Source of the DNA: Sulfuritalea sp.
GTDB lineage: Bacteria; Pseudomonadota; Gammaproteobacteria; Burkholderiales; Rhodocyclaceae
Length of the DNA: 40,968 nucleotides
Direction: 5' to 3'
Assembly (NCBI GenBank): GCA_030680805.1
Contig: JAUXUK010000086.1
Location: 1-40,968, forward strand
This document shows, in pieces, positions 21,471 through 40,968 of this stretch. The first letter of the stretch is position 1. The number at the start of each line of letters is the position of its first letter. Below the pieces are notes generated by a model. The model was not told the DNA's origin. It did not search any database and saw nothing but the letters and a program-made list of their open reading frames with translations. The position numbers were made by a program, and so were the translations under genes.

Positions 21471-22922
21471 ATGAGCAAGAAACTCACTACCAACGCCGGC
21501 TGCCCCGTCGTCGACAACCAGAACGCGATGACCGCCGGACCGCGCGGGCCGCAACTGCTACAGGATGTCTGGTTCCTCGAAAAACTCGCCCATTTCGACC
21601 GCGAGGTAATTCCCGAACGGCGCATGCACGCCAAGGGCAGCGGCGCCTACGGCAGCTTCACCGTCACCCACGACATCACGAAATACACCCGTGCCAAGAT
21701 CTTCTCCCAGGTCGGCAAGAAGACGGAACTCTTCGCACGCTTCACCACCGTCGCCGGCGAGCGCGGCGCGGCCGATGCCGAGCGCGACATCCGCGGCTTC
21801 GCCGTCAAGTTCTACACCGAGGAAGGCAACTGGGACATGGTCGGCAACAACACGCCGGTGTTCTTCCTGCGCGATCCGCTCAAGTTCCCCGACCTCAACC
21901 ACGCGGTCAAGCGTGACCCGAAGACCAACATGCGCAGTGCGAAGAACAACTGGGACTTCTGGACCTCGCTGCCTGAGGCCCTGCACCAGATCACCATCGT
22001 CATGTCGGACCGCGGCATCCCGGCCAGCTACCGCAGCATGCACGGCTTCGGTTCGCACACCTTCAGCTTCATCAACGCGAAGAACGAGCGCTACTGGGTC
22101 AAGTTCCACTTCAAGAGCCAGCAGCCGATCCGGAACCTGACCGACGCCGAGGCCGAGGCCCTCATCGGCAAGGATCGCGAGAGTCACCAGAAGGACCTCT
22201 TCGAGGCCATCGAAAATCGCGATTTTCCGAAATGGACGCTGAAGGTGCAGGTCATGCCGGAAGCCGATGCCGCCAAGCTGCCCTACAACCCCTTCGACTT
22301 GACCAAGATATGGCCGCACAAAGACTACCCGCTGATCGAAGTCGGCGTCATGGAGCTCAACCGCAACCCCGAGAACTTCTTCGCCGAGGTCGAGCAGTCC
22401 GCCTTCAATCCAGCCAACGTGGTGCCCGGCATCGGCTTTTCGCCGGACAAGATGTTGCAGGGCCGCCTGTTCGCCTACGGCGATGCGCAACGCTATCGGC
22501 TCGGCGTCAATCACCACCTGATTCCGGTGAACGCCCCGCGCTGCCCGGTGCACAACTACCACCGCGATGGCGCCATGCGCACCGACGGCAACTTCGGCGG
22601 CACGCTTGGCTATGAACCCAACGACCAGGGCGAATGGGCCGAGCAGCCGGAATTCCGCGAGCCGCCGCTGGCGCTTTCCGGCGCGGCGGACCACTGGAAC
22701 CATCGCGAGGACACGGACTACTACTCGCAGCCCGGCGCGCTGTTCCGCCTCATGACGCCGGCGCAGCAGAAGGTGCTGTTCGAGAACACCGCACGTTCGG
22801 TGGGCGGGGCGCCGAAGTCGATCCAGTTGCGCCACATCCGCAACTGCCTGAAGGCCGATCCGGCCTACGGCAAGGGCGTGGCCGACGCGCTGGGCATCGC
22901 CTTGTCCGAAGTCACGGCCTGA
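21471..22922 (+). CDS. katA: Monofunctional haem catalase
   Basis: Haem b catalase that dismutates H2O2 to water and oxygen. The product of 483 residues is the small-subunit clade. Active-site His53 lies in [12 protein letters not shown], the catalytic Asn in VGNNTPVFF near residue 126, and the proximal haem ligand Tyr336 in [21 protein letters not shown] precedes the ATG. It is the last gene of the peroxide-defence group; a GC hairpin begins eight bases after its stop. The symbol is by family convention. Confidence 0.96.
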
Positions 22923-23015: not shown

Positions 23016-23222
23016 TCAGTCGGCGTCGAAACCGGCGTCCTCGATTACGGACTTGAGCTGGTCGCGCGTCACCTTCGCGGCGTCGAACTCGACCACCGCC
23101 TGCTTCTGCTCCAGCGAGACCTCGGCCTTCGTCACACCGTCGAGCGCCGTCAGCGCGCCGGTCACGCTTTTCACGCAGCCGCCGCAGGACATGCCGTCCA
23201 CCTTGATTGTCGTCGTTTCCAT
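23016..23222 (-). CDS. copZ: CopZ-like copper chaperone (HMA domain)
   Basis: Cytoplasmic 68-residue heavy-metal-associated domain protein. The metal-binding motif is MSCGGC near the N-terminus of a beta-alpha-beta-beta-alpha-beta fold ending in VIEDAGFDAD. Such chaperones bind Cu+ and hand it to the CopA ATPase. It lies one base behind the copA reading frame on the same strand, so it is the last gene of a rhodanese-copA-copZ operon. Mercury or other soft metals are less likely given the ATPase type. Confidence 0.9.
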   Translation of the reverse strand: METTTIKVDGMSCGGCVKSVTGALTALDGVTKAEVSLEQKQAVVEFDAAKVTRDQLKSVIEDAGFDAD

Positions 23223-23223
23223 T

Positions 23224-25437
23224 TCACTTCCCTCCGGGTTTCCAGTTTCTCAGCAGCAGCGAATTGCTCACCACCGATACCGAGCTCATCGCCATCGCCG
23301 CGCCGGCGATGACCGGGTTCAGCATGCCCAGCGCCGCGAGCGGGATGCCGAGCACGTTGTAGATGAAGGCGAAGAACAAATTCTGCCGTATCTTGGACAG
23401 CGTCGCGCGTGAGAGCGAAATCGCATCGGCGACGCCGTTGAGGTCGTCGCGCATCAGCGTCACGTCGGCGGCTTGCATTGCCACGTCGGAGCCGGCCGCC
23501 ATGGCGAAGCTGACGTCGGCCGCAGCCAGCGCCGGCGCGTCGTTGATGCCGTCGCCGGCCATGCCGACCAGACGGCCGCCGGCTTTGAGCTTGTTCACGG
23601 CGGCGGCCTTGTCGCCGGGCAAAACCTCGGCCTCGAAATATTCGATGCCGGCTTCATGAGCCACAGCCTGCGCCGTACCGGCGTTGTCGCCGGTCAGCAT
23701 CACGACGTCGATGCCGAGCCGGTTCAGGCGCGCCACCGCAGCCCTCGAGCTGGCACGCAAGGGATCGGCGATGCCGATGAAGCCGAGCAGTTTTTCATCG
23801 GCGACCACGGCGACCACGCTGCGTCCGGCGTGCGCCAAGGTCTCGGCCTCGGGCGCGGACCAGCCCTGCTCCTTGATCCATCCCGCCGAGCCAGCGAGCA
23901 CGCGGCGGCCATCGACTTCGCCCTGAAGACCCCGGCCCGCCGTCGTCACGACGTTCTGCGGCGTCGCCAGGGCGAGCCCGTCGGCCCTGGCGCGCGCCAC
24001 GATGGCGGCGGCGAGCGGATGCGTCGATCCCTGTTCGAGGCTGGCCGCGAGTTGCAGCAATGTCGCCGTATCGTCAGCGCCGACTTTTTCGGGAATCACG
24101 TCGGTCACCACCGGCTGTCCCTCGGTCAGGGTCCCGGTCTTGTCCACCACCAGCACCTTGAGCTTTTCCGCAAGCTCCAGCGCCACTGCATTGCGGATCA
24201 GCACGCCGGCCTTGGCGCCCTGCCCGGTGCCGACCATGATCGCGGTCGGCGTCGCCAGTCCCAGCGCGCAGGGACAGGCGATCACCAGCACCGCTACGGC
24301 GTTGACCAGCGCCTGGGTGAAGTCACCGGCCAGCGCCCACCATGCGACAAAGGTAAGCAGCGCAATCGCCACCACCACCGGCACGAAAATCGCCGCTACT
24401 TTGTCAGCCAGACGCTGCACCGGGGCTTTGGAACCCTGCGCTTCCTCCACCAGGTGAATGATGCCGGCCAGTAAGGTGTGGCTGCCGACGCCCGTGGCGC
24501 GGCAGCGCAGCAGCCCGTCGCCGTTGATGGTCGCGGCGAACACGCGGTCGCCCGCGGCTTTGGTCACCGGCAGGCTCTCGCCGGTGAGCATGGATTCGTT
24601 GGCCGACGATGCGCCGTCGATGACCTCGCCATCGACCGGCATCGCCTCGCCGGCACGGACGACGAAGACATCGCCGGGAATCAGCGTCGCCACCGGCACG
24701 TCGATCAATTCACCGGCGCGCTCGATGCGCGCCGTCTGTGGCTGCAATTTCGCCAGCGCCTCGATGGCGGCGGACGTCTTCGCCTTGGCCCGCGCTTCTA
24801 GAATCTTGCCCAGCAGCACCAGCGTGATGACCGTGGCGGAGGCCTCGAACTACACATGCTGGTGATGCAGGTCCCACACCGTGACGACGAAGCTGTAGGC
24901 CCAGGCCATGCTGGTGCCCAGCGCCACCAGCACGTCCATGTTGCCGGCGCCGCCGCGTATCGCGTTGGCGCCGCCGACGTAAAAGCGCCAGCCGATCCAG
25001 AACTGCACCGGCGTCGCCAGCAACAATTGCAGCCAGCGCGGAATGACATCGGTGTGAGCGTCGGCGTCGGCGCCGAACATGAAGGCCATCTGCGCCACCA
25101 GCGGCAGCGTCAGCGCGGCGGCGATCCAGAAGCGGTGCAGTTCCTCGTGATAGAGGGCCAGCTTCTTCGCTGTTTCCCCGGCCCGCGTATCCGTTGTAGA
25201 CACATCCGCCGTAAAACCGGTCTTCACCACGGTCGCGATCAAGCGGTCCACATCGACAGTGCCCGGCGCGTAGCGAACGTGCGCACGCTCGGCGGCGAAG
25301 TTCACCGCCGCTTCGACACCAGGGAGCTTGTTCAACTGCTTTTCGATGCGCGCCGCGCAGGCCGCGCAGGTCATGCCGCCCAGCGCCAGTTCGACGGTGT
25401 CGCGACTGCTGTCGGCGGGGGCCTGCGGCGCGTTCAT
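23224..25437 (-). pseudogene. copA: CopA-type Cu+ P-type ATPase interrupted by an in-frame amber codon
   Basis: Cu+-exporting P1B-ATPase of about 737 codons. Nearly everything is intact: one N-terminal HMA domain (GMTCAACAARI, C24/C27), the CPC transport motif in [15 protein letters not shown], phosphorylation site [25 protein letters not shown], and the last two membrane segments with YNVLGIP and [11 protein letters not shown]. However codon 196 is TAG (24850-24852), between HHQHV and [10 protein letters not shown], where homologues have Tyr. The frame is the same before and after, so this is a single substitution rather than a frameshift. Translation would give a 195-residue N-terminal fragment, unless the codon is suppressed, a downstream GTG (24819) is used, or the base is a sequencing error. 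The intact downstream motifs argue for a very recent event. Start ATG lies three bases after the rhodanese stop. Confidence 0.9.
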
Positions 25438-25440
25438 CGC

Positions 25441-25821
25441 TTACTCGAAATTTATCGGCTCGGGCTTCTCGGTGGGTCGGCCTTCGGTGTTCCAGACCTC
25501 GAAGCCGCCCGCCATTGAAATCACGTCGGCATAACCGATGCGCTGCAACTGCACCGTCGACAACGCGGCGCGGCCGCTGGTGCGGCAGTAGATCAGGTAG
25601 GGCCTGACCTTGTCGAGGCACTCGGCAACGGTGCCGATCTTGAACTCGAGCACGCCGCGCGGGATGTTGATCGCGCCGGGCAGGTGGCCGGCGGCATACT
25701 CGTCGTACTCGCGCACGTCGATGATGGTGCGCTTGGTCATCAGCGCCTGCGCCTCGGCAGTCGATACTTCCTTGATCTGCGACTTGGCTTCGACGACGAG
25801 GTCGTGGGGGGTGAGGGCCAT
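25441..25821 (-). CDS. Rhodanese-domain protein
   Basis: Single-domain rhodanese of 126 residues, a sulfurtransferase or persulfide carrier. The active-site cysteine is in IYCRTSGRAA, and family motifs TIIDVREYDEYAAGHLPGAI are present. No signal peptide, so cytoplasmic. ATG at 25821 follows CCGGAGAG; an in-frame ATG six codons upstream (25839) lacks a ribosome site. First gene of the operon with copA and copZ, hence a role in copper or sulfide stress, or delivery of sulfur to thiol chaperones, is plausible but unproven. Confidence 0.9.
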   Translation of the reverse strand: MALTPHDLVVEAKSQIKEVSTAEAQALMTKRTIIDVREYDEYAAGHLPGAINIPRGVLEFKIGTVAECLDKVRPYLIYCRTSGRAALSTVQLQRIGYADVISMAGGFEVWNTEGRPTEKPEPINFE

Positions 25822-25837
25822 GGTTCTCTCCGGAAAC

Positions 25838-25853
25838 ATTAGAAAACGCTAAT
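25838..25853. promoter_or_regulatory. Inverted repeat upstream of the rhodanese-copA operon
   Basis: ATTAG-N6-CTAAT, a perfect 5-6-5 inverted repeat, ends 17 bases before the rhodanese ATG. It is an AT-rich island in GC-rich DNA and could be an operator. It does not look like a CueR site. The cognate regulator is unknown and none is encoded nearby. Confidence 0.4.
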
Positions 25854-36963: not shown

Positions 36964-37512
36964 CTACTTGGCGCTTCGGATGTCCGCGGGTACTTGAATG
37001 GCGACAGCCGGCGACGGCGAACTGCCGATCAGGGTTTCTCCATTGGCCGGCAGGATGACATTCCCCATCAGGCGCCAGGTCTTGCGCTCGTCTTCGAGCA
37101 ACACCAGCCAGTGCCCTGCGGTCGGCAGGCGTATTTCGCCCGAGTAGGTATCTCCCTTCCCCGCCAGCACCCGAAACTGATCGAGGCCGGCACGGGTTGG
37201 ATGCGCAATAGTCACGGCCAGCGTTGGTGGCATCATGAAACTCTTGTCGTTCGCCTGCATTCGCACCGACAGAGTGTCGCCGGCAATTCGCACTCCTGCC
37301 ACCAGCCCCAGTTTGCTTGCCAATTCACTACGGGCAATGGTCTGGTTGGCGGCAAGGCCCTTCCTGTAGTAATCCTCCGTAACCAGCCCATCGTTGCTGA
37401 CCACGGCAAGCCACGCCGTGTAAATCCCCGCGATCACGACGATGAACGGCCCGGCCGCCAAAATCCATGGCCAGGGTTCGCGGTACCAGGGACGACCAAT
37501 TGCGGTATTCAT
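36964..37512 (-). CDS. fixH: FixH family cbb3 oxidase assembly protein
   Basis: Membrane-anchored protein of 182 residues (FixH/CcoH) that stabilises the cbb3 oxidase during assembly. After REPWPWILAAGPFIVVIAGIY comes the membrane segment and the family motif VTEDYYRKGLAANQTI, then a periplasmic domain. ATG at 37512 has AAGGA seven bases before it; another ATG at 37527 overlaps the ccoG stop (ATGA) and is equally possible. The usual next genes ccoI and ccoS do not follow. Confidence 0.92.
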   Translation of the reverse strand: MNTAIGRPWYREPWPWILAAGPFIVVIAGIYTAWLAVVSNDGLVTEDYYRKGLAANQTIARSELASKLGLVAGVRIAGDTLSVRMQANDKSFMMPPTLAVTIAHPTRAGLDQFRVLAGKGDTYSGEIRLPTAGHWLVLLEDERKTWRLMGNVILPANGETLIGSSPSPAVAIQVPADIRSAK

Positions 37513-37523
37513 GTTTTCTTCCT

Positions 37524-38945
37524 TCATGGTTGCAGGAAACTGGCCTTTTCATGCACGGCCACCTTTTCGTCGGCAATCGATTTCACGTCAAAAAAGATCT
37601 GGTTCGAACCCTTCTTGCCTGAGTCCGGCGGCACCCGCACCTGAACCGAGAAACTTCTGGCCGCCGCAGCCGGGACTTCGAGGATGCGCTCGCCCACCAT
37701 GTCGATTCCCGGCAGGCCGGACACGCTCACGGCATAGCGGCGCGGTGTTTCGGACACATTGATGACATGCAGCCGATACACATTCTCGATCAGGCCGCCC
37801 TCGACCTCGCGCGCCAGGGTTGCGCGGTCACGAATGACATCCACGCGCAAGCTCGGCTTGGTGGCGATACCCCAGACAAAGGCCACGCAGATCGCGGCGA
37901 GAATTGCCGAATAGATGATGACCCGCGGCCGGACGACGTGGCCAAGAATCTCCTTCCAGCCCCAATGCGACTCGATCGCATGCTCGGTGGAATAGCGGAT
38001 CAGGCCCTTCGGATAGTCCATTTTTACCATCACCTGATCACAGGCGTCGATGCATGCCGCACAGCCGATGCACTCGTATTGCAAGCCGGCGCGAATGTCG
38101 ATGCCGGTCGGGCAGACCTGAACGCAGATTCCGCAATCAACGCAATCACCCTTGGCAATCGATTGCGGATCAACGCCCTTCTTGCGAGCGCCGCGCGGCT
38201 CGCCGCGCTCCGTATCGTAGGTAATGGTCAATGTATCCGGATCGAACATCACGCCCTGGAAGCGTGCGTAGGGACACATGTGCTTGCATACCTGCTCGCG
38301 CATGTGGCCGGCGAACAGGTACGTGAAGGCGCCGTAGAACAGCATCCAGAAGGTTTCCCACGGTCCCAGCGAGAAACTCCAGAGGGAACTCCACACCGTT
38401 TTGATCGGCGTGAAATAGCCGACAAAGGTGAAGCCCGTCCAGAATGCCAGCAGCCCCCAGGAGGCATACTTGGCCGTGCGCAGCCATAGCTTGCGTCCGC
38501 TCATGGGTGCCGCATCGAGCTTGATCCGCGCGTTGCGCTCGCCCTCGATCTTTTGCTCGATCCAGGTGAATATCTCGGTGTAAACGGTTTGCGGACAGGC
38601 GTAGCCGCACCACAAGCGCCCTCCCACTGCCGTGAACAGGAACAGCGAATACGCCGAAATGATCAGCAGGATGGCGAGGAAGATCACGTCCTGCGGCCAG
38701 AACACCAGCCCGAAGATGTAGAACTTGCGTTCGACCAGGTCGAACAGCACCGCTTGCCGCCCGTTCCAGGGCAGCCAGCAAACGCCGTAATAGATCAGTT
38801 GGGTAATCCAGACCAAGGCCCAGCGCCAGGTAGCGAAGATGCCGCTGACGGCACGCGGGTGCACTTTCTGGTGAACTTCGTAAAGGCTTTCCTCGACGAA
38901 GACGGGTTTGGCTTCCTGCGACGGCCCGGGGGAGGCGGATGTCAT
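37524..38945 (-). CDS. ccoG: cbb3 oxidase accessory protein CcoG (polyferredoxin)
   Basis: Membrane polyferredoxin of 473 residues that reduces Cu2+ to Cu+ for cbb3 oxidase maturation. It has a CGYACPQTVYTE motif, a second WCKH-like CKHMCPYARFQ, two [4Fe-4S] motifs (CVDCGICVQVCP and CIGCAACIDACD), five or so membrane segments and a C-terminal Ig-like domain of the FixG type. The ATG at 38945 has no Shine-Dalgarno sequence; instead a perfect palindrome ends five bases upstream. The gene is separated from ccoP by a terminator, so it needs its own promoter. Confidence 0.95.
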   Translation of the reverse strand: MTSASPGPSQEAKPVFVEESLYEVHQKVHPRAVSGIFATWRWALVWITQLIYYGVCWLPWNGRQAVLFDLVERKFYIFGLVFWPQDVIFLAILLIISAYSLFLFTAVGGRLWCGYACPQTVYTEIFTWIEQKIEGERNARIKLDAAPMSGRKLWLRTAKYASWGLLAFWTGFTFVGYFTPIKTVWSSLWSFSLGPWETFWMLFYGAFTYLFAGHMREQVCKHMCPYARFQGVMFDPDTLTITYDTERGEPRGARKKGVDPQSIAKGDCVDCGICVQVCPTGIDIRAGLQYECIGCAACIDACDQVMVKMDYPKGLIRYSTEHAIESHWGWKEILGHVVRPRVIIYSAILAAICVAFVWGIATKPSLRVDVIRDRATLAREVEGGLIENVYRLHVINVSETPRRYAVSVSGLPGIDMVGERILEVPAAAARSFSVQVRVPPDSGKKGSNQIFFDVKSIADEKVAVHEKASFLQP

Positions 38946-39029: not shown

Positions 39030-39992
39030 TTACTTCTTTTCTGCCGGCGCGGCTGCGGCCGGTGAACCAGCCGGCGCTGCGGCAGAAGCATCCTTGACAC
39101 CGCCACCCAGTCCATACACATACGCAGTCAGCAGATGCACCTTGGCATCGCCGAGGAACTCGCCGAAAGCCGGCATGCGGTTGGTACGGCCCTTGGTAAT
39201 CGTCTCGACGATGCTTTCCTCGGAACTGCTGTAGAGCCAGACCTTGTCCGTCAGGTTCGGCGCCAGCCCGAGGACGCCCTTGCCGTCCGGCCCATGACAG
39301 GCGGCGCAGGCCGGAGCAAACAGCTCCTTGCCACGCTGGACGCGGATCGAATCGGCGGCGAGGCCCGACAGGGAACGCACATAGTGGGCGAGGTCCTTGA
39401 TCTGGTCACCGTTCAGATCGGGCTTGACACCCTTGGCCGGCATCATGGCGTCGCGGCCCTTCTGGATGGATTCCTTGATCTGGTCCGGTGTGCCGCCAAA
39501 CAGCCAGTCGTTGTCGACCAGGTTGGGGAAGCCGCGTGCGCCCTTGGCATCCGAACCGTGGCACTGCGCACAGTAGGTCAGATACAGGCGCTGACCCATT
39601 TCCCTGGCTTCGCTGTTGGCCGCCACGGCCATGATGTCCTGGCTCTGGAACTTCTTGAAGATCGGCCCGTACTGCTCCTCGGCCTTCTTCATCTCGCCGT
39701 CATACTGGCCGGTGGAAGACCAGCCGAAACCGCCCTGATAGGTGCCCAGGCCCGGATACATTGCAAGATAGAACAGCGAGAAGACGATGGTGATGTAGAA
39801 CAGCCAGCGCCACCAGCTCGGCAAGGGATTGCTGAACTCCTGCAAATCCTCGTCCCAGACATGACCGGTGGTCTCGCCCTCCACATGCTTGGCCGAACTC
39901 TGCATCCAGAGCAACGCGGCACAGGCGATGATACTGGCGAGCACAATGCTTATTACGTAGTAATTCCAGAAGCCGCTGACAAAATCACTCAT
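39030..39992 (-). CDS. ccoP: cbb3 oxidase dihaem subunit CcoP
   Basis: Membrane-bound dihaem cytochrome c, 320 residues, that carries electrons to CcoO/CcoN. Two haem c sites are seen: CAQCH (C141, C144, H145) and CAACH (C229, C232, H233), with Met ligands in MMPAKG and RMPAFG. Two N-terminal membrane segments (residues about 10-30 and 62-80) bracket the typical NPLPSWWRWLFY. An Ala/Pro-rich tail ends the protein. Its start overlaps the ccoQ stop by four bases. Confidence 0.97.
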   Translation of the reverse strand: MSDFVSGFWNYYVISIVLASIIACAALLWMQSSAKHVEGETTGHVWDEDLQEFSNPLPSWWRWLFYITIVFSLFYLAMYPGLGTYQGGFGWSSTGQYDGEMKKAEEQYGPIFKKFQSQDIMAVAANSEAREMGQRLYLTYCAQCHGSDAKGARGFPNLVDNDWLFGGTPDQIKESIQKGRDAMMPAKGVKPDLNGDQIKDLAHYVRSLSGLAADSIRVQRGKELFAPACAACHGPDGKGVLGLAPNLTDKVWLYSSSEESIVETITKGRTNRMPAFGEFLGDAKVHLLTAYVYGLGGGVKDASAAAPAGSPAAAAPAEKK

Positions 39993-40178: not shown

Positions 40179-40790
40179 TTACCTTGTCTGCTTGAGCGCG
40201 AGGCCCAGGCCCTGAAGGTAAGCGATCAATGCGTCGAGTTCCGTCGCGCCTTCGATGGCCTTTTTCGCTCCGGCGATTTCGGCATCGGTATAAGGCACGC
40301 CGACCGCGCGCAGCGCCTTCATCTTGGCGTCGATGGCATCATCCTTGAGCGGACGATCCAGCCAGGCATAGGCGGGCATGTTCGATTCGGGCACCACATC
40401 GCGCGGATTCAGCATGTGAATCTTGTGCCACTGATCCGAATAGCGGCCGCCTACACGCGCCAGATCCGGGCCGGTACGCTTGGAGCCCCACTGGAAGGGA
40501 TGGTCATAGACGAACTCGCCGGCCACGGAGTAGTGGCCATAGCGCTCGGTCTCGGCGCGGAACGGACGAATCATCTGCGAGTGGCAGTTGTAGCAGCCTT
40601 CGCGGATGTAGATGTCACGGCCCGACAAACGCAGCGGGTCATAAGGCTTGACCAGTTCGTTGGTCGGCGTGGTGGTGGATTTCTGGAAGAACAGCGGGAC
40701 GATCTCAAGCAAACCACCCACACTGATGGTGAGGATGGTCAGAACGATAAACAACCCCACGTTCCGTTCGATCTTGTCATGCGTCAACAT
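40179..40790 (-). CDS. ccoO: cbb3 oxidase monohaem subunit CcoO
   Basis: Membrane-anchored monohaem cytochrome c, 203 residues. An N-terminal anchor ([20 protein letters not shown]) precedes the haem site CYNCH (C66, C69, H70) in the family stretch [20 protein letters not shown]; the Met ligand is in ESNMPAY. It follows ccoN by 33 bases in the ccoNOQP order. No anomalies. Confidence 0.97.
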
Positions 40791-40823
40791 GATGTATGGC
40801 TCCTTAATCTGTGCAATCGGGGC

Positions 40824-40968
40824 TTAGTGAGCCGCTGCGGGCGCGAGTACTGGCGCATTGACCGCCTTGCCGCCCGCCATGGTCAGGAACATGTTCCAGG
40901 CCATGATGAACATGCCGGAGAGGAACAACAAGCCGCCGAGCAAGCGTATGGTCCAGAACGGGTAGGTT
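40824..40968 (-). CDS. ccoN: cbb3 oxidase catalytic subunit CcoN, C-terminal part only
   Basis: The last 47 codons of the haem-copper catalytic subunit, cut by the window edge. The visible part contains the final membrane segment (LLGGLLFLSGMFIMAWNMFL) and the tail ending APAAAH, as in CcoN. The haem and CuB ligands lie outside the window. Identity rests on this fragment plus the ccoO-Q-P genes behind it. Confidence 0.9.
   Translation of the reverse strand, partial: TYPFWTIRLLGGLLFLSGMFIMAWNMFLTMAGGKAVNAPVLAPAAAH

Follow-up and report, generated by a model that had tools for sequence, protein, structure and literature searches.

Copper-transporting P-type ATPases of the CopA type (P1B-1; 3rfu, 7r0g, 3j09) export Cu(I), and the CcoI/FixI enzymes form a related, CopA2-type group. 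In E. coli, the single gene copA reportedly encodes a chaperone as well as a pump by means of a programmed frameshift, and this frameshift is located early in the gene. According to a review, assembly of the cbb3 oxidase depends on CcoI and CopA1-type pumps export excess copper (PMC7558416); in Campylobacter, deletion of ccoI almost abolished oxidase activity, which was partly restored by copper, and copA and copZ mutants also showed reduced oxidase activity (PMC8267372). The DNA analysed here, referred to as the window, is the 40,968-base contig C62 of G000, a draft metagenome-assembled genome of or near Sulfuritalea. It carries a copA gene that is interrupted by one in-frame TAG and flanked by a copZ-like gene and a gene for a rhodanese-like protein:

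23016..23222, minus strand: copZ-like copper chaperone, 68 aa, directly after copA (PF00403, 66.5 bits; TIGR00003, 65.3 bits, cut-off 62)
23224..24849, minus strand: copA after the stop, E1-E2 ATPase and hydrolase domains, 541 aa (TIGR01511, 550.4 bits, cut-off 397)
24850..24852, minus strand: in-frame TAG, copA codon 196 (direct reading; Tyr in all 109 related loci read)
24853..25437, minus strand: copA before the stop, HMA domain and first membrane part, 195 aa (PF00403, 51.6 bits)
25441..25839, minus strand: rhodanese-like protein, upstream of copA (PF00581, 70.8 bits)

The copA frame and its constraint

The copA frame (25437..23224 on the minus strand) spans 738 codons including the final stop and is in the same phase on both sides of its one internal stop, which reads CTA on the plus strand. 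The original prediction of a single amber codon in an otherwise intact copA thus stands, also for the part after the stop, where the score for the copper P-type core clearly exceeds the curated cut-off and the CPC and DKTGT motifs, which we take to be those of CopA-type enzymes, are present. The 195 residues before the stop, with their metal-binding HMA domain, align to the N-terminal parts of Cu-ATPases of known structure, and the catalytic part matches the solved copper ATPase 3rfu at 1e-144. Because both parts match copper ATPases and all related loci read carry Tyr instead of a stop, the frame is more than a product of chance. The gene resembles the CopA-type P1B-1 ATPases in its HMA domain, the two motifs and the copZ-like gene that follows (for which NF033795, at 85.9 bits, scores just below its cut-off of 91), but differs from them by the TAG, which aligns just before position 188 of 3rfu, ahead of a core membrane helix. 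As the first residue after the stop corresponds to this position, a product ending at the stop would lack the ATPase domain. Owing to the TAG at codon 196 there is no single continuous reading frame, and the gene is therefore a copA gene with a nonsense codon and not a proven working CopA. Like the E. coli frameshift product, the predicted stub would be a shortened N-terminal protein with an HMA domain; in contrast to the early E. coli frameshift, however, the stop lies behind the first membrane part and is not conserved in relatives. A promoter and terminator scan around the stop returned none of either. Farther downstream, the segment 21430-23015, which contains what is presumably a catalase-like frame (21471-22922), is skipped in the alignment to the single-contig relative G002 between collinear flanking blocks and thus looks gained here or lost in G002.

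The original prediction had also named Tyr as the residue that homologues carry at this codon, and this was borne out: Tyr occupies the column in 109/109 related loci read (L007-L115), at least 12 of which are second copies of the same record (detected among the 41 loci, out of 55, whose frame was extracted), and TAG in 0/109. These loci comprise 29 from a search of 61 genomes, 60 of which had a match (the window's own locus excluded), and the best 80 of 570 confirmed from named genomes. Among these best 80 of 570, the closest named relatives are metagenome-assembled genomes of Sulfuritalea, Rhodocyclaceae or Rhodocyclales, whose protein identity after the copA stop reaches 93%. The end of the copA sequence is identical in G011, whose genus is listed as the same, and in the named Sulfuritalea locus L036.

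Selection was estimated as omega from pairwise NG86 distances and three-point branch lengths, comparing the window's branch with three neighbour branches. On the window's branch, omega is 0.088-0.099 before the stop and 0.094-0.106 after it; the neighbour branches gave 0.035-0.131 before the stop position and 0.08-0.14 after it. Of 343 columns invariant among the 29 relatives, the window copA keeps 342, and the one exception is located before the stop; eight relatives under equal treatment miss 0 or 1 invariant columns each. We roughly estimate that, had the gene been dead for more than a few per cent of the branch, this would be visible. Constraint is thus unrelaxed on either side of the codon, in line with the recent nonsense mutation originally proposed; selection being unrelaxed after the stop, the stop must be very young, read through, or not truly present. 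An old pseudogene is ruled out by the omega of about 0.10 after the stop, the 342/343 invariant columns kept and the lack of further lesions.

Other copper ATPases of the genome

The amber codon had been thought to matter for respiration too, on the grounds that no ccoI accompanies ccoG/fixH, so that the interrupted ATPase might also supply the cbb3 oxidase. The cco genes in question lie at the end of the window:

36964..37527, minus strand: ccoH/fixH (PF05751, 112.4 bits)
37524..38945, minus strand: ccoG/fixG (PF11614, 105 bits; PF13746, 142.3 bits)
39030..39992, minus strand: ccoP (PF14715, PF13442)
40179..40790, minus strand: ccoO (PF02433, 282 bits)
40817..40968, no strand given: contig end inside ccoN, overlapping the start of contig C35 (143/152 identical)

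Neither step of this argument is supported: the window ends within ccoN, and the cco operon continues on the adjoining contig C35, which carries an intact ccoN (478 aa), ccoS (FixS, 84.2 bits, with no stop in the 61 codons read) and an intact ccoI (C35:2069-4519, 816 aa) with PF12156, HMA domain and ATPase core. In the single-contig relative G002, the counterparts of C62 and C35 are collinear and lie side by side in this order, and about 18 kb separate copA and ccoI. PF12156 and the place beside ccoS identify the C35 gene (frame C35:2072-4519) as CcoI/FixI; it is a separate gene that is 39% identical to the CopA part after the stop, and PF12156 was not found on the window copA. Because ccoI is intact here and cbb3 assembly depends on CcoI, CopA need not supply the oxidase (PMC7558416; PMC8267372). 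By analogy with the Campylobacter mutants (PMC8267372), loss of CopA might still lower oxidase activity indirectly.

The genome-wide search for further copA or ccoI genes also recovered a third copper ATPase, intact on contig C64 (824 aa; TIGR01511, 565.8 bits), which perhaps represents another kind of copper ATPase in the genus. At this locus (G000:C64:18921-22463, L002), an extra N-terminal HMA_2-like part scores 28.3 bits, below the cut-off of 30, and a further open frame follows. There is no second copy of the window copA in the genome, the next best match being 49%. Loss of the only copper ATPase is ruled out by the intact genes on C35 and C64.

Origin of the amber codon

G000 consists of 3.14 Mb in 107 contigs and is 86.2% complete and 5.49% contaminated. 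At the junction of C62 and C35, positions 40817-40968 of the window and C35:1-152 disagree at 9 of 152 bases, an indication that the bin contains more than one strain. A second mid-gene TAG was found on the minus strand at G000:C1:16889-16891 (L171:16889) in a calcium-type P-type ATPase, so that 2 of the 5 P-type ATPases of G000 are interrupted in this way. At the second site, Glu stands in 22/22 loci at 67% identity or more, and two more distant loci have one Ile and one Glu.

The frequency of such stops was assessed by a codon-usage scan. Under an initial, permissive rule, 465,490 bases contained 77 sites, 7 of which were read more closely; a stricter rule gave 25 sites in 862,490 bases, with a sensitivity of 3332/4940 at random codons (about two thirds), and 31 same-frame junctions in 1,064,743 bases (34% of the genome). 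Two of the 31, the copA stop and C1:16889, were recognised as mid-gene with homology on both sides. Most of the remaining junctions, judged by eye, have a start codon no more than 11 codons away and look like the beginning of the next gene; L162:15966, L172:6736, L177:1099 and L226:8497 are ambiguous or have no start within that distance, and L172:6736 reads as a gene end. For comparison, 435,001 bases of G002 contain 4 same-frame junctions in the raw scan output. In a homology check, 10 of 35 matched frames had an internal stop: two are the true mid-gene cases (the copA row also includes the stop of the preceding gene), one is the end of a gene, and for seven the frame on the opposite side scores better, although for L172:7473-6799 the difference is slight (0.22 vs 0.24). 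In three of the seven better-scoring opposite frames, internal stops read as gene ends. None of the 35 matched frames, at least 7 of them antisense, has a frameshift-like break, and the assembly is thus not grossly poor. At a rate of about 1.4 wrong or rare bases in every 10 kb, the coding bases sampled would contain two such nonsense codons, and that both are TAG is unsurprising because TAG results from 52% of the single-base changes that create a stop here. A literature search on stops or pseudogenes in metagenome-assembled genomes returned no paper.

On balance, we regard the TAG as probably, though by no means securely, an error of the consensus or a base contributed by a minor strain, in a Sulfuritalea draft genome that is probably a mixture of strains, and not a feature on which copper handling depends. 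A single-base event in the assembled consensus would have created the codon, and the dominant cells would have copA in full length; in any cell where the base is real, ordinary translation would end at codon 196 and leave a membrane stub without ATPase domains. The Tyr found throughout the related loci, the unrelaxed omega and the kept invariant columns are consistent with this reading, as are the draft statistics, the differences between the ends of C62 and C35, the second mid-gene TAG and the modest error rate that two such codons imply. Against an error count the 35 matched frames free of frameshift-like breaks (at least 7 of them antisense) and the fact that both mid-gene stops recognised in the 34% of the genome scanned fall in P-type ATPases. 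Random error does not predict the latter, a coincidence of about 2% by our own rough estimate; its weight is reduced because C1 was sampled for holding an ATPase. Close behind ranks a genuine, very recent nonsense allele fixed in the strain, by which CopA copper export would be lost while CcoI and the C64 ATPase remain. That this happened is quite possible, if short of an even chance: the stop is single and clean in an assembly whose matched frames show no frameshift-like break, the neighbouring copZ and rhodanese genes are intact, other copper ATPases could serve as backup, and unrelaxed selection agrees with an allele that, as roughly estimated, arose within the last few per cent of the branch. 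However, one base alone speaks for loss, with no second lesion; all 109 loci read are intact at the site; and the genome is a mixed draft. Of the three options originally offered for the codon, recent loss and a wrong base are both plausible, and suppression has become unlikely.

Readthrough by a suppressor tRNA, recoding or a programmed mechanism, with full CopA still made, would agree with constraint as strong after the stop as before it, and a suppressor tRNA could sit in the missing part of the incomplete genome. We nevertheless consider it very unlikely. Release factor RF1 is present (527 bits vs a cut-off of 423), TAG terminates 71 of 312 long coding-like frames (the interrupted C1 frame excluded), and ccoI itself ends in TAG immediately before ccoS. 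The search for amber suppressors found the anticodon CTA in 0/36 tRNAs, all 36 matches having been read in this 86.2% complete genome, and the best PylS score (24.6 bits) is below the cut-off of 178. TAG is also absent from the copA position of the related loci, and at the second mid-gene TAG the residue of the relatives is Glu instead of Tyr, which, although only two sites are compared, speaks against a single recoded meaning. Thus, TAG has kept its use as a stop and RF1 is retained, no tRNA to read it is among the 36, and the two in-frame codons do not share a residue; with the PylS score, these observations rule out a change of the genetic code or pyrrolysine. It is less probable still that copA is a split gene, with the stub either joining a restarted C-terminal part to make up the pump or serving by itself to bind copper. 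The stub retains the whole HMA domain, and E. coli copA is said to give two products, but the first start codon past the stop is a GTG at the 11th codon, the nearest GAGG, as read by eye, is some 20 bases upstream of this GTG, copA is followed by a separate copZ, and no stop occurs at this site in the 109 loci read. The most far-fetched idea is that the amber codons in the copper pump and the calcium-type pump are read through in some cells by an undetected suppressor, so that ion export would vary between cells or with stress.

Meaning for copper handling in Sulfuritalea

A fresh stop in copA, whether it reflects a wrong base, a minority variant or a mutation of very recent date, is ordinary, because two intact copper pumps remain, including the kind that serves the cbb3 oxidase. 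A literature search pairing Sulfuritalea with CopA turned up one paper, on mine tailings. One stop codon in a draft genome assembled from a metagenome says little about whether a gene has been lost, and a gene that appears to be missing beside a contig end, as ccoI does here, may be found where the adjoining contig begins. Should the allele prove genuine and fixed, it would be a modest natural example of CopA being lost while CcoI is retained, and would allow the detoxification of copper to be told apart from its delivery to the oxidase.
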